A stretch of DNA of 64,000 nt from an uncultured Oscillospiraceae bacterium. Its GTDB lineage: Bacteria > Bacillota > Clostridia > Oscillospirales > Oscillospiraceae. Numbering within the stretch: the first letter of the stretch is position 1; every line of letters begins with the position of its first letter. The notes below the pieces were generated by a model, which was not told where the DNA came from, did no database searches, and worked only from the letters and a program-made list of their open reading frames with translations. Shown in pieces: positions 54,411 through 60,780 of this stretch. The DNA lies in NCBI GenBank assembly GCA_947631595.1, contig CANRLZ010000003.1:16425-80424 (forward strand), in the 5' to 3' direction. Made by a program: the position numbers and the translations under genes.

Positions 54411-55433
54411 TTGAACACTTCCGATTTTTACTACGACCTTCCCCAGGAGCTGATCGCCCAGACCCCCCTGGAGCGCCGGGACAGCTCCCGGCTCATGACC
54501 CTGAACAAGGCCACGGGGGAAGTGGGTCACGCCCATTTTTACGACCTTCCAAGCTTCCTCCGCCCGGGGGACTGCCTGATCCTCAACGACTCCCGTGTGC
54601 TGCCCGCCCGGCTCATCGGCCGGCGGGAGACCGGCGGCGCCTGCGAGGTGCTGCTGCTCACCGACAAAGGGGATAAGACCTGGGAGTGCCTGGTGCGCCC
54701 CGGGCGCAAGCTGCGCCAAGGGGCAAAGGTGGTCTTTGGGGACGGGGAACTCACCGCGGAGATCGCCCAGGTGCTCCCCGACGGCAACCGCCTGGTGCGC
54801 TTCGACTATGAGGGGATTTTCCTGGAGGTGCTGGAGCGGCTGGGCAAAATGCCCCTGCCGCCCTATATCAAGGCGGAACTCCAGGACCAGGAGCGCTACC
54901 AGACCGTCTACTCCCGGGAGGTGGGTTCCGCCGCGGCGCCCACCGCCGGACTGCACTTTACCCGCGACCTGCTGGCCCAGGTGGAGGCCATGGGGGTGAA
55001 GGTCTGCTACGTCACCCTCCACGTGGGCCTGGGCACCTTCCGGCCGGTGTCGGAGACGGAGTTGGAGCGGCACGTGATGCACGCGGAATTCTGCACCGTC
55101 CCCCCGGAGACCGCCCAGGCGGTCAACGAGACCAAGGCCAAGGGCGGGCGGGTGATCTGCGTGGGCACCACCTCCTGCCGCACGGTGGAGAGCTGGGCGG
55201 GGGAGGACGGGCGGCTCCAGGTCGGCTCCGGCTGGACGGACATCTACATCTACCCCGGCTACCGCTTCAAGGTGCTGGACTGCCTGGTGACCAATTTCCA
55301 CCTCCCGGAGTCCACGCTTATCATGCTGGTGTCCGCCCTGGCGGGGCGGGAGCACGTGCTGGCGGCCTACCGGGAGGCGGTGGAGGAGCGCTACCGCTTC
55401 TTCAGCTTCGGCGACGCCATGTTCATCTACTGA
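54411..55433 (+). CDS. queA: tRNA preQ1(34) S-adenosylmethionine ribosyltransferase-isomerase
   Basis: TTG start; [44 protein letters not shown]. Confidence 0.96.
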
Positions 55434-55444
55434 GGAGACGATCT

Positions 55445-56581
55445 ATGTTTGAACTGCTGCGCACACAGGGCCGGGCCAGGCGGGGGGTGTTCACCTGCCC
55501 CCACGGCACCGCCCAGACCCCGGTCTTTATGAACGTGGGCACCCAGGGGGCCATCAAGGGGGCGGTGTCCGCCCCGGACCTTGTGGAGCTGGGGTGCCAG
55601 ATCGAGCTGTCCAACACCTACCACCTCCACCTCCGCCCCGGAGATGAGACGGTTCGGCGGATGGGCGGGCTGCACCGCTTCATGAACTGGAACGGGCCGA
55701 TCCTCACCGACTCCGGCGGGTTCCAGGTCTTCTCCCTGGCCTCCCTGCGGGACATCCGGGAGGAGGGGGTCACCTTTGCCAGCCACATCGACGGCCGCCG
55801 GGTCTTTATGGGCCCCGAGGAGTCCATGGCCATCCAGTCCAACCTGGGCAGCGACGTGGCCATGGCCTTTGACGAGTGCGTGGAAAACCCCTCTCCCTAT
55901 GAATATGTGAAAGCCTCCTGCGAGCGAACGCTGCGCTGGTTGGAGCGGTGCAAGGCGGAGCACGACCGGCTCAACGCCCAGCCCGGCTGCGTCAACCCCG
56001 GCCAGCAGCTCTTTGGCATCAACCAGGGCGGCACCTACCCCGACCTCCGGGTCTGGCACATGAAGGAGATCGCCAAGCTGGGCTGCGACGGCTACGCCAT
56101 CGGCGGTCTGGCGGTGGGGGAACCCACCCAGACCATGTACGACATCATTGACGCGGTGGAACCCTTCATGCCCGCGGACAAGCCCCGCTACCTCATGGGC
56201 GTGGGCACCCCGGGGAACATCATCGAAGGGGTCTGGCGGGGCGTGGACTTCTTCGACTGCGTCATGCCCGCCCGGAACGCCCGCCACGGCAAGCTCTACA
56301 CCTGGGGCGGCTGGATCAACATCAAAAACGAGTGCTACAAGACGGACGAGCGGCCCATCGACCCGGACTGTCAGTGTCCGGCGTGCCGCAACTTCTCAAG
56401 GGCCTACCTGCGCCACCTCTTCGTGGCCGGGGAGATGCTGGCCATGCGCCTTGCCGTCCAGCACAACCTCTGGTTCTACAACACCCTCATGGCGCGCATC
56501 CGCCAGGCCCTGGACGAGGGGGACTACGACGCCTTCCGCCAAGAATACGCCCAAAAGCTGGACGGGCGGCTGGAGGAATAA
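55445..56581 (+). CDS. tgt: queuine tRNA-ribosyltransferase
   Basis: LTDSGGFQVFSL, MAFDECVENPSPYEY, GGLAVGEPTQTMYD, Zn site CQCPACRNFSRAYLRHLF. Confidence 0.97.
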   Translation: MFELLRTQGRARRGVFTCPHGTAQTPVFMNVGTQGAIKGAVSAPDLVELGCQIELSNTYHLHLRPGDETVRRMGGLHRFMNWNGPILTDSGGFQVFSLASLRDIREEGVTFASHIDGRRVFMGPEESMAIQSNLGSDVAMAFDECVENPSPYEYVKASCERTLRWLERCKAEHDRLNAQPGCVNPGQQLFGINQGGTYPDLRVWHMKEIAKLGCDGYAIGGLAVGEPTQTMYDIIDAVEPFMPADKPRYLMGVGTPGNIIEGVWRGVDFFDCVMPARNARHGKLYTWGGWINIKNECYKTDERPIDPDCQCPACRNFSRAYLRHLFVAGEMLAMRLAVQHNLWFYNTLMARIRQALDEGDYDAFRQEYAQKLDGRLEE

Positions 56582-56657: not shown

Positions 56658-56930
56658 ATGGAAATGATACTGCCTCTGGCATTGATGCTGGTACTGATGT
56701 ATTTTCTGCTCATCCGCCCGGAGAACAAGCGGAAGAAAGAGGCTGCCGCCATGCGGGACAGCCTGGCTGTCGGAGATGAGATCACCACCATCGGCGGCAT
56801 CATCGGCACCATCTGCGCGGTGAAGAAGAACACCATCGTCATCGAGACCGGCGCCGACCGGGTGCGCATCGAGCTGACCAAGTGGTCTGTCTCCTCCAAG
56901 GGCACCCAGTTCACCGAGGAGACCAAGTAA
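56658..56930 (+). CDS. yajC: preprotein translocase subunit YajC
   Basis: LPLALMLVLMYFLLIRPENKRKKEAAAMRDSLAVGDEITTIGGIIGTI. Confidence 0.95.
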   Translation: MEMILPLALMLVLMYFLLIRPENKRKKEAAAMRDSLAVGDEITTIGGIIGTICAVKKNTIVIETGADRVRIELTKWSVSSKGTQFTEETK

Positions 56931-56952
56931 AAAAGTTCCGGTATGAACCTGT

Positions 56953-56999
56953 CCCTCCCCGCATAGTCTTGTTCCAAAGACGTGAGGGGAGGGCTTTTT
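56953..56999 (+). promoter_or_regulatory. terminator-like hairpin containing the SD of the next gene
   Basis: CCCTCCCC ... GGGGAGGG then CTTTTTATG; inner GTCTT/AAGAC helix. Confidence 0.65.
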
Positions 57000-57410
57000 A
57001 TGGGCAAAATGGACGAGGAGCAGGGGGCGTGGCTGCGGTACATGACCCAGGTTCTCCTGGGCGCTGTGGTGGCCGCGCTGGTGGGGATGCTGTTCCTCCT
57101 GGTCTGCGCCGTGCTGATCTCCGGGGGGCGCCTGAGCCGGGACCACGCCGGCGCCTTGGGCGTTTGCGCCTGCGTGCTGGGCAGCCTGGTGGGCGGCACG
57201 GTGGCGGTGAGCCGGTGCAAGGGGCGGCGGCTGATCGTGGGGCTGCTCACCGGTGTGGCCCTCTTTCTCATTTTGCTCACCGCCGGGCTGCTGCTCTATC
57301 GCTCTGTGGCGATTGAGGAGCGGGGTCTGCCCCTGGGCTGTGGATGCCTGTGCGGCGGGGCGCTGGCCGGACTTCTGGGGGCGCGGCCCAAGAAAAAACG
57401 GCGAAAGTGA
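57000..57410 (+). CDS. TIGR04086 family membrane protein
   Basis: 136 aa, four TM-like segments; located immediately before scfA as typical for the family. Confidence 0.85.
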   Translation: MGKMDEEQGAWLRYMTQVLLGAVVAALVGMLFLLVCAVLISGGRLSRDHAGALGVCACVLGSLVGGTVAVSRCKGRRLIVGLLTGVALFLILLTAGLLLYRSVAIEERGLPLGCGCLCGGALAGLLGARPKKKRRK

Positions 57411-57439
57411 TTGAAATTTCCAAACGGGTGTGGTATAAT
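57411..57439 (+). promoter_or_regulatory. sigma-A type promoter for scfA
   Basis: TTGAAA - 17 nt - TATAAT. Confidence 0.75.
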
Positions 57440-57474
57440 CTCTCCCAACCAAGGAAAACGGGGAGGGAAAACCA

Positions 57475-57624
57475 ATGGAGCATATCCGCACCTTGAACGG
57501 CGCCACCCTGAAGAAGAGCGCCGCCCACGGTGGCTGCGGCGAGTGCCAGACGTCTTGCCAGTCCGCCTGCAAGACCTCCTGCACCGTGGCCAACCAGAAG
57601 TGTGAGAACGACGAGAACCGCTGA
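57475..57624 (+). CDS. scfA: SCIFF (six-cysteines-in-forty-five) ranthipeptide precursor
   Basis: MEHIRTLNGATLKKSAAHGGCGECQTSCQSACKTSCTVANQKCENDENR, six Cys; not in ORF track; next to its maturase. Confidence 0.95.
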   Translation: MEHIRTLNGATLKKSAAHGGCGECQTSCQSACKTSCTVANQKCENDENR

Positions 57625-57639
57625 CGCGGGCGGGAAACA

Positions 57640-57669
57640 AAAAGGGGTGGGCCGGCGCCCACCCCTTTT
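57640..57669 (+). terminator. hairpin/attenuator between scfA and scfB
   Basis: AAAAGGGGTGGGC-cggc-GCCCACCCCTTTT. Confidence 0.75.
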
Positions 57670-57701
57670 CCTTGCGAAAAACCGGAAAGGAACGAGAACG
57701 C

Positions 57702-59045
57702 ATGGTACATACCTTTGAAGCCCTGGGCGTCTTCGTCGCCGTGGATGTGAACAGCGGCGCTGTCCACGTGCTGGACAAGGCCGCCTTTGATCTTTTGAAC
57801 GACCTGATCGCCGCCCAGGGACAAAATCCCGACTTCTCCCAAAAACCCCAGGACGCCGGCCCCGCCTGGGAGGAGCTGAAGGCGCTCTACGACCAGGGCC
57901 TGCTGTTCACCCAGGACGACTACATCGACGCCCCCGCCATGGCCTATCTGGGGGAGGAGCCGCCCATCAAGGCCCTGTGCCTCCACGTCTCCCACGACTG
58001 CAACCTCCGCTGCCGCTACTGCTTCGCCTCCACCGGCGACTTCGGCACCGGCAAGCGCATGACCATGTCCTTCGAGACCGCCCGGCGGGCCATCGACTTC
58101 GTGGTGGAGAAATCGGGAAAGCGCCGAAATCTGGAGGTGGACTTCTTCGGCGGCGAGCCGCTGATGGCTATGGACACCGTACGGCGGACGGTGGAGTACG
58201 CCCGGAGCATCGAGGCCGCCCACAACAAGAACTTCCGCTTTACCATCACCACCAACGGCGTGCTCCTGGACGACGAGACCATCGACTACATCAACCGGGA
58301 GATGTCCAACGTCGTCCTCTCCCTGGACGGCCGCAAGGAGGTCAACGACCGTATGCGCCCTACGCCGGGAGGGCAGGGGAGCTATGACCTCATCGCGCCC
58401 AAGTTCCAGAAGATGGCGGCCTCCCGGGGCACCAAGGACTACTACGTCCGGGGCACCTTCACCCGGGAGAACCTGGACTTTGCCGCCGACGTGCTCCACT
58501 ACGCCGACCTGGGCTTCCGCAACGTGTCGGTGGAGCCGGTGGTGTCTGAGGCGGACAAGCCCTGGGCGCTGCGGGAGGAGGACGTGCCCGCCATCGAGGC
58601 GGAGTACGAGAAGCTGGCCGCCGCCCTGCGGGAGCGCCCGGAGGTGAACTTCTTCCACTTTAACGTGGACCTGAGCCAGGGTCCCTGCGTCATCAAGCGC
58701 CTCCGGGGCTGCGGGGCAGGGTGCGAGTATGTGGCCATTACCCCCGACGGGGACATCTATCCCTGCCACCAATTTGTGGGGAATGACGAATACCGCATCG
58801 GAAACCTCTACGACGGCACCTTTGACCGGGAGATCGCCAAGCGCTTCGCCGGGCTGAACATCTACACCCGCGAGGCGTGCAAGACCTGCTGGGCGCGCTT
58901 CTATTGCAGCGGCGGGTGCAGCGCCTCCAACCTGGCGGTGAACGGGGATATCCAGATCCCCCACGAGATCGGCTGCAAGCTGGAGCGCAAGCGGCTGGAG
59001 TGCGCCATCGCGTTGAAGGCCATCCGGGCGGGTATGTCAGAATGA
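57702..59045 (+). CDS. scfB: thioether cross-link-forming SCIFF peptide maturase (radical SAM, SPASM)
   Basis: HVSHDCNLRCRYCFASTGDFGTGKRMTMSFETARRAIDFVV, FFGGEPLM, SPASM-type CKTCWARFYCSGGCSASN. Confidence 0.96.
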   Translation: MVHTFEALGVFVAVDVNSGAVHVLDKAAFDLLNDLIAAQGQNPDFSQKPQDAGPAWEELKALYDQGLLFTQDDYIDAPAMAYLGEEPPIKALCLHVSHDCNLRCRYCFASTGDFGTGKRMTMSFETARRAIDFVVEKSGKRRNLEVDFFGGEPLMAMDTVRRTVEYARSIEAAHNKNFRFTITTNGVLLDDETIDYINREMSNVVLSLDGRKEVNDRMRPTPGGQGSYDLIAPKFQKMAASRGTKDYYVRGTFTRENLDFAADVLHYADLGFRNVSVEPVVSEADKPWALREEDVPAIEAEYEKLAAALRERPEVNFFHFNVDLSQGPCVIKRLRGCGAGCEYVAITPDGDIYPCHQFVGNDEYRIGNLYDGTFDREIAKRFAGLNIYTREACKTCWARFYCSGGCSASNLAVNGDIQIPHEIGCKLERKRLECAIALKAIRAGMSE

Positions 59046-59323: not shown

Positions 59324-60121
59324 ATGGAACGGACTTTGGGCGCCATCGGCGCGGGAAATATGGCCGGCGCGATCCTCTCCGGCGTCTTGGCGAAGGGCTT
59401 GGTGGAGCCGGAGGATATCTGGCTGTCCAACCCCTCTCCGGAGAAACTGGAGCCTTGGAAAAAACTGGGCGTTCATGTCAGTTCGGACAATGCCGATGTG
59501 GCGAAAAACGCCCAGGTGATCGTCCTGGGCATCAAGCCCCAGATCTTCGATGCGGTGCTCCCCCAGCTGGCGCCCCTGGTCCAGGGGAAGTGCGTGGTGT
59601 CCCTGGCGCCCGGCATCTCCATGGGGTATCTGCGTGAGCGTCTTCCCGGCGCTATGGTGATGCGGGTCATGCCCAACACCCCTATGAAGTTGGGAGAGGG
59701 CGCCACGGTGGTGGCCCAGGCGCCGGACGTTCCGGAGGACCTGTTCCGTTTCGTGGTCTCCCTCTTCGAGTCCGCGGGTACCGTGGCGGTGATCCCGGAG
59801 AGCCAGATGGACGACTTCATCGCCGTCAGCGGCTCCAGCCCCGCCTTTTTCTTCCGCATGGCGGCGGCGATGGTGGACTCGGCCAAGGCCGCGGGGATCG
59901 ACCCCGACCTGGCGCTGTCCATGGTCGCCCAGACCATGGTCGGCTCGGCGGCGATGTTGACCCGCACCGGCCTGACCGCCCAGGAGCTCACCCGGCAGGT
60001 CTGCTCCCCCGGCGGCACCACCCTGGCGGCCCTCACCGCCTTTGACGACTACCGTTTCGAGGAGATGATGGACCAGGCCGCCGCCCGGTGCGCCCAGCGC
60101 TCCCGGGAGCTGGGCAGGTAG
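59324..60121 (+). CDS. proC: pyrroline-5-carboxylate reductase
   Basis: LGAIGAGNMAGAILSGVLAKG, VMPNTPMKLGEGATVVA, AVSGSSPAFFFRM, SPGGTTLAAL. Confidence 0.96.
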   Translation: MERTLGAIGAGNMAGAILSGVLAKGLVEPEDIWLSNPSPEKLEPWKKLGVHVSSDNADVAKNAQVIVLGIKPQIFDAVLPQLAPLVQGKCVVSLAPGISMGYLRERLPGAMVMRVMPNTPMKLGEGATVVAQAPDVPEDLFRFVVSLFESAGTVAVIPESQMDDFIAVSGSSPAFFFRMAAAMVDSAKAAGIDPDLALSMVAQTMVGSAAMLTRTGLTAQELTRQVCSPGGTTLAALTAFDDYRFEEMMDQAAARCAQRSRELGR

Positions 60122-60162
60122 GGCTTCTATTTTGACGGCTTGTCTCATAGCATGGCTATGAG

Positions 60163-60780
60163 GTGAGCGCGGTGGCAAAAGAGAAGAAGGCGAGAGTCCG
60201 CGTCCCCCTGGCGCTGGCGGTCAATACGGCGGCCTTCGCCCTGGGCGGACTGGGCGGGTTCTGTCTGGCGGGCTGGTTGGCCGGGCGGGGCTGGCTCACG
60301 TTTTCCGGCTGGCTGGAGAGTTACGCTCTGGGCCTGGCGGAGATGAAGGCGTCCGGCGTCTCTTTTTTTGCCGTGCTGTGGGACGCGCTGCGCTGGCCCC
60401 TCTTCGTGCTGGCGCTGGGCTATACGGCCCTGGGCGTCTGGATGGTTCCTGTGATGTTCGCCCTACGGGGGTTTTTCCTCTGCTTTTCCGTGGCCGCCCT
60501 CTGCGGGGCGGGGCAGGGGGGCTTTCCCCTGGCCCTGGTCCTCTGGGGGCTGGGCGGGACGATCAAGCTCCCCGCCTTCTTCCTCCTGGGCACCCGCAGT
60601 TGGAGTCAGGCGGTGAGCTTGGGCGGACGGCCGTTGGCCCTGCCGGCGGACTGGGACGGGCGGTATCTGGCCCGGACGGGCTTAATTCTGGGCTGTGTGG
60701 CGGGCTGCGCCTGGGTGGAATTCTGGTGTGTGCCCGGCCTGTTGCAATGGATCGTTCCCCTCCTTCGGGCGGGGGGATAG
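60163..60780 (+). CDS. multi-TM protein, probable SpoIIM-like
   Basis: 205 aa, about 5 TM segments; directly upstream of xerD; weak family call from topology and neighbourhood. Confidence 0.5.
   Translation: MSAVAKEKKARVRVPLALAVNTAAFALGGLGGFCLAGWLAGRGWLTFSGWLESYALGLAEMKASGVSFFAVLWDALRWPLFVLALGYTALGVWMVPVMFALRGFFLCFSVAALCGAGQGGFPLALVLWGLGGTIKLPAFFLLGTRSWSQAVSLGGRPLALPADWDGRYLARTGLILGCVAGCAWVEFWCVPGLLQWIVPLLRAGG

Follow-up and report, generated by a model that had tools for sequence, protein, structure and literature searches.

The window analysed here, a stretch of 64,000 nucleotides of DNA from an uncultured Oscillospiraceae bacterium, carries a SCIFF ranthipeptide locus in which the precursor gene scfA is closely followed by scfB, the gene for its radical SAM/SPASM maturase (Table 1). 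Going outward, the genes upstream of scfA are those for a small membrane protein of the DUF3792 family, yajC, tgt and queA, and a promoter, a terminator-like stem-loop and a leader element in front of the DUF3792 gene were recognised around them. The assembly to which the window belongs is 79% complete; judged by ScfB, its nearest relatives are MAGs of uncultured Oscillospiraceae that carry the label 'Lapin' (91% identity), followed by Pseudoflavonifractor and Flavonifractor, and the presence of spoIVA in the genome (E 4e-210) indicates that the host belongs to a spore-forming lineage.

Table 1. Genes and regulatory features of the SCIFF locus and its upstream neighbourhood (positions are those of the window).
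Feature	Position	Strand	Description and support
queA	54411-55433		precedes tgt
tgt	55445..56581	+	TIGR00430 497.7 bits (cut-off 306.75)
yajC	56658..56930	+	Sec translocase accessory subunit; TIGR00739 81.3 bits (cut-off 44.2)
DUF3792 leader element	56941..57002	+	hairpin covering the ribosome-binding site, with nested sigma-E-like promoter
DUF3792/TIGR04086 gene	57000..57410	+	small membrane protein, 136 aa; TIGR04086 61.5 bits (cut-off 30); PF12670 51.9 bits (cut-off 31.3)
scfA promoter	57411..57439	+	sigma-A-type, TTGAAA-17-TATAAT; 11/12 consensus matches
scfA ribosome-binding site	57460..57467	+	GGGGAGGG, 7 nt before ATG
scfA	57475..57624	+	SCIFF precursor, 49 aa; TIGR03973 81.7 bits (cut-off 50); PF13165 84.1 bits (cut-off 27)
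scfA-scfB stem-loop	57640..57669	+	terminator-like; 13 bp stem, CGGC loop, T4 (sequence and fold)
scfB	57702..59045	+	radical SAM/SPASM SCIFF maturase, 447 aa; TIGR03974 647.5 bits (cut-off 425)

The assignment of scfA and scfB to the SCIFF/ranthipeptide class is supported by their sequences, because both genes score well above the curated cut-offs, are separated by 77 bases on the same strand (within the ≤500 bp taken as adjacency for a SCIFF system) and encode all of the residues conserved in the family. The first-pass annotation of this DNA, which had placed a 49-residue precursor with six cysteines beside a radical SAM/SPASM maturase with CxxxCxxC and SPASM cysteines, between positions 57475 and 59045, agrees with these results. 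Its remark that no exporter or peptidase gene is adjacent is literally true, but left unmentioned the conserved small membrane-protein gene directly upstream, and it likewise overlooked the promoter of scfA and the stem-loop lying between the two SCIFF genes.

The translation of scfA is MEHIRTLNGATLKKSAAHGGCGECQTSCQSACKTSCTVANQKCENDENR, with cysteines at positions 21, 24, 28, 32, 36 and 43, and can be divided into a leader (approximately M1-G20) and a Cys-rich core (C21-R49); the 21-residue CteA leader that was crystallised with CteB (5WGG) aligns to its residues 1-21. The resulting C2C3C3C3C6C spacing is common to all 86 precursors compared from the sampled genomes, in which Cys32, Lys33, Thr34, Ser35 and Cys36 are invariant, and the positions of Cys32, Thr34 and Thr37 agree with those of characterised SCIFFs. 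For CteA, the cross-link has been published as Cys32-Thr37 in one study and as Cys32-Thr34 in another (PMC8326336, PMC8172795). Since residue 37 varies between Thr (65 precursors) and Gly (21 precursors) while Thr34 does not vary, we infer that Thr34, rather than Thr37, would be the general acceptor. Comparison with scfA of a same-genus genome revealed six synonymous codon changes and one conservative change (Asp to Glu), small numbers that nevertheless point to constraint on scfA at the protein level. Tandem double SCIFF units within single open reading frames were also encountered (L102 2610-2930, L103 2838-3119, L104 2323-2580 and L105 2800-3090), the second unit having a leader-like stretch of its own; in L105 a serine replaces one cysteine of the first unit.

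The closest structural matches of ScfB in the PDB are the CteB entries 5WGG and 5WHY (E 4.7e-166, residues 1-440), a similarity well beyond chance. Its radical SAM motif, CNLRCRYC (CX3CX2C), comprises C100, C104 and C107, and these three cysteines, together with those of the SPASM region, are invariant among 79 ScfB proteins, barring gaps and truncated ends; one or two substitutions occur at each of the last two C-terminal cysteines, and an additional cysteine, Cys341, varies freely in the same set. Residues 1-87 align with the leader-binding N-terminal region of CteB, in which an RRE is present (PMC8326336), so that an RRE in ScfB is assigned by homology only.

With respect to expression, scfA appears to possess a strong sigma-A-type promoter of its own, located 35 nt upstream of its start codon, and this arrangement is conserved in Clostridia: promoters with at least 10/12 consensus matches occur upstream of 48 of 88 scfA genes, mostly at a similar distance, compared with 1.9 expected from dinucleotide shuffles, which take no account of kinship among the genomes. 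Terminator-like hairpins are found in 19 of 25 scfA-scfB gaps class-wide (0.5 expected) and in 26 of 34 within the same family (1.6 expected). Among 14 related stem-loops, with the core registered by hand, four of nine core pairs have changed on both sides and pairing is intact in every sequence. The promoter and the covarying stem-loop together predict that the precursor is made in excess over the maturase; the fact that only four T follow the stem counts against this explanation. An Rfam scan yielded no match at gathering score, and a SAM-SAH riboswitch considered over the scfA leader (57437-57482) was rejected as most likely a chance similarity (20.2 bits versus a gathering score of 40).

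Few modified peptides of gut Clostridia are as widespread as SCIFFs. They were detected in 163 of 196 genomes of the class and in 139 of the 158 (88%) that are of good quality, and the claim in the first-pass annotation that they are near-universal in Clostridia is therefore sound for the class but too strong for the window's own family, in which 53 of 78 good-quality genomes (68%) have them; their absence from about one third of the good family genomes shows that they are not indispensable. Neither are the two genes always linked, the best scfB not adjoining scfA in 21 of 139 genomes. When 20 such scfA regions were re-read, 18 had no scfB in the downstream stretch (mostly 3-4.6 kb, with only 0.8 kb in L046), one lay at a contig edge and one did have scfB. 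In at least 18 of the sampled genomes the two genes are thus widely separated or lie on different contigs (scfA in L032-L048 and L050, scfB in L052-L068). TIGR03974 identifies seven of eight distant maturases tested as ScfB, and the other (L069) is closer to the not_ScfB model, just under its cut-off. A published survey took radical SAM genes at most 500 bp from scfA (PMC5300114), and genome mining based on such a rule would miss the lineages in which scfA and scfB are unlinked.

The gene directly upstream of scfA is positionally conserved: of the 75 class-sample genomes that have both genes on one contig, 68 have DUF3792 immediately before scfA and in the same orientation. Nevertheless, it does not co-occur with SCIFF, being found in 22 of the 33 genomes that lack SCIFF and in 124 of the 163 that have it (Fisher p = 0.28), and Bacillus subtilis has DUF3792 without SCIFF. 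Its leader, situated between yajC and the DUF3792 start (hairpin region 56947-57002), folds into a hairpin with the arms CCCTCCCC (56953-56960) and GGGGAGGG (56986-56993), the 3' arm being the DUF3792 ribosome-binding site. Hairpins covering the ribosome site precede 59 of 87 DUF3792 genes, compared with 2.7 expected from shuffles not corrected for kinship, and 7 of 12 consensus pairs show changes on both sides. A sigma-E-like promoter is nested inside the hairpin (GTATGAA at 56941-56947, N14, CATAGTCT at 56962-56969), the sigma-E consensus applied being that of B. subtilis. The spacing of N14 recurs in 50 of 59 sigma-E-like matches before DUF3792 genes and in 19 of 20 good matches to sigma-E-type promoters of spoIVA in the same family, the spoIVA promoter of the window's organism itself being TCATAAC-N14-CATAGAGT. 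The motif CATA is invariant in 27 aligned leaders, which had however been collected by a pattern containing CATA; an unselected scan gave 47 hits for CATA versus 0-12 for other four-base control motifs. Further conserved bases lie upstream, outside the RNA stem (GCATR, then CATANNNT); of 29 sequences, 26 have A-19 and 25 have T-18. The element is conserved in the family and is not in Rfam; a model built from it scores 60 bits at the window site and usually finds one strong place per genome in relatives.

This leader is a likely candidate for a sporulation-gated translation switch of the sigG type, by analogy with B. subtilis, in which the sigG hairpin blocks translation of read-through mRNA and not of mRNA from the gene's own promoter (PMC5942855). 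Messages reading through from yajC would have a blocked DUF3792 ribosome site, and those started by sigma-E inside the hairpin would be free. Since the scfA promoter is of the vegetative type and that of DUF3792 is sigma-E-like, expression of the two genes probably does not coincide in time, and this speaks against an exporter role of DUF3792 for SCIFF. Taken with the lack of co-occurrence and the presence of the gene in B. subtilis, this led us to reject it as a dedicated partner, and DUF3792 probably stands outside the SCIFF pathway. A literature search on DUF3792, TIGR04086 or yrzE with sporulation found nothing relevant. Of the side results of this work, the regulatory element in front of DUF3792 is the most novel. 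A similar CATA-containing hairpin (CTCATAGCATGGCTATGAGG) lies near the start of a gene at 60100-60780 of the window that encodes a SpoIIM-like membrane protein (25.8 bits, just below the Pfam cut-off of 26.9), and the same is seen before a similar gene in L134, L152 and L181; judged by sequence, such hairpins also occur before murA-like (L203, about 1514-1570) and dpaA/spoVFA-like (L204, about 1582-1638) genes. The CATA hairpin may represent a more general gating of sporulation genes in Oscillospiraceae.

It has been published that SCIFF relatives carry a thioether linkage and have a role in quorum sensing (PMC8326336, PMC11063209), the latter for solventogenic Clostridium (Chen et al. 2020, as cited in both of these works), and the peptide of this locus could accordingly be an exported quorum-sensing signal that leaves the cell through DUF3792 or a distant transporter. 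We consider this possible but rather unlikely. All 83 precursors examined have a glycine just before Cys21, and 71 of them have Gly-Gly there, as would suit a peptide cleaved on export, and a complete same-genus genome encodes one C39 peptidase protein; yet the residue at -2 can also be Ala, Lys, Ser, Met or Pro, which are unfit for strict double-glycine cleavage, that C39 protein lies on another contig than SCIFF, and the window's 79%-complete genome yielded no C39 peptidase, so that double-glycine/C39 processing was rejected. Moreover, no exporter, peptidase or sensor gene adjoins scfA or scfB, DUF3792 appears to be under sporulation control, and the core is nearly identical between species, which would be unusual for a signal that discriminates among them. 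Even less credible is that the six-cysteine peptide works without modification, for instance in buffering metals or redox state. The high expression predicted from its own promoter and a content of six invariant cysteines among 49 residues would suit such a function, but the maturase gene is present in the same genome as scfA in nearly all cases, the cysteines are no more invariant than Thr34 and other residues of the core, and modification of relatives has been published both for in vitro reactions and for E. coli (PMC8326336, PMC8172795); we therefore regard it as extremely improbable.

The gene neighbourhood raises a different possibility, namely that SCIFF has a functional tie to the Sec accessory block (yajC, DUF3792, secDF) and is a membrane-associated peptide with a housekeeping role, not a secreted signal. 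In its favour, besides the position of DUF3792 described above, scfA stays beside yajC in 16 of the 18 loci without a nearby scfB, and secD and secF come after scfA in the two such loci that were checked (L032 and L042). Against it, DUF3792 is present independently of SCIFF, scfA has a promoter distinct from the sigma-E-like one of DUF3792, and the gene block tgt-yajC-secDF is old, which means that inertia may account for the linkage. Furthermore, whole-genome searches found yajC but no SecD in either the window's genome (G000, 79% complete) or the same-genus genome rated 100% complete (G271), and the idea of a SecD next to the locus, an arrangement seen in some relatives, was accordingly discarded; a literature search for ranthipeptides with SecD found nothing relevant. 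This tie to the Sec block is thus quite improbable, and it is highly improbable in the stronger form of an abundant constitutive peptide, not a secreted signal, with the yajC/secDF block as its conserved partner and scfA embedded there even where scfB has moved away.

The reading that we prefer, and hold to be very probable, is that of a standard SCIFF ranthipeptide unit, with scfA expressed from its own sigma-A-type promoter, attenuated at the stem-loop, and its product given a thioether by ScfB; no test made here contradicts it. According to this model, scfA would be transcribed during growth and most transcripts would end at the stem-loop, while scfB would be supplied in smaller amounts by read-through. 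As in characterised relatives, ScfB would bind the leader peptide with its N-terminal recognition domain, and its radical SAM cluster would abstract a hydrogen from the acceptor residue, most likely Thr34, whereupon the thioether with Cys32 expected from those relatives would form with the help of the SPASM clusters. The product would probably then be trimmed, and exported or used by factors encoded elsewhere than at this locus. In conclusion, this is an ordinary SCIFF locus, a further member of a known family, with no new chemistry, and its host is an uncultured Oscillospiraceae bacterium of a spore-forming lineage. What is new is the vegetative-type promoter of scfA and the covarying stem-loop predicting precursor excess, the incomplete presence of SCIFF in the window's own family, the unlinked maturase lineages and the evidence against the neighbouring exporter candidate; the findings to carry forward are the expression layout, the unlinked pairs and the DUF3792 leader element.

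Among known systems, the locus most resembles CteA/CteB (thermocellin) of Clostridium thermocellum, with which it shares the Cys32/Thr34/Thr37 numbering of the precursor and a maturase alignable from the leader-binding N-terminal region onwards, including all cluster cysteines; unlike CteB, ScfB has the non-conserved Cys341 in place of a histidine, and its host is an uncultured member of the Oscillospiraceae. Tte1186a/Tte1186 of Caldanaerobacter subterraneus likewise consists of a SCIFF precursor and a dedicated maturase, compared here via published descriptions only, which place a thioether at Cys32 (PMC8326336, PMC8172795). PapA/PapB (freyrasin) of Paenibacillus polymyxa belongs to the same ranthipeptide maturase superfamily, but PapA carries Cys-X3-Asp motifs that are absent from ScfA, and ScfB reaches 276.8 bits with the PapB model, below its cut-off of 340, and a freyrasin-type assignment was rejected. 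The orphan maturases of NF040492 (not_ScfB) are related radical SAM/SPASM proteins, from which ScfB differs by its score (560 versus a cut-off of 855 bits), which rules out this identity, and by its adjacent precursor. The DUF3792 leader, as read here, resembles that of B. subtilis sigG in that read-through mRNA would be blocked by a hairpin unable to form in mRNA from the gene's own promoter (PMC5942855), and differs from it in the gene concerned and in a promoter that is sigma-E-like rather than of the sigma-F/G type.
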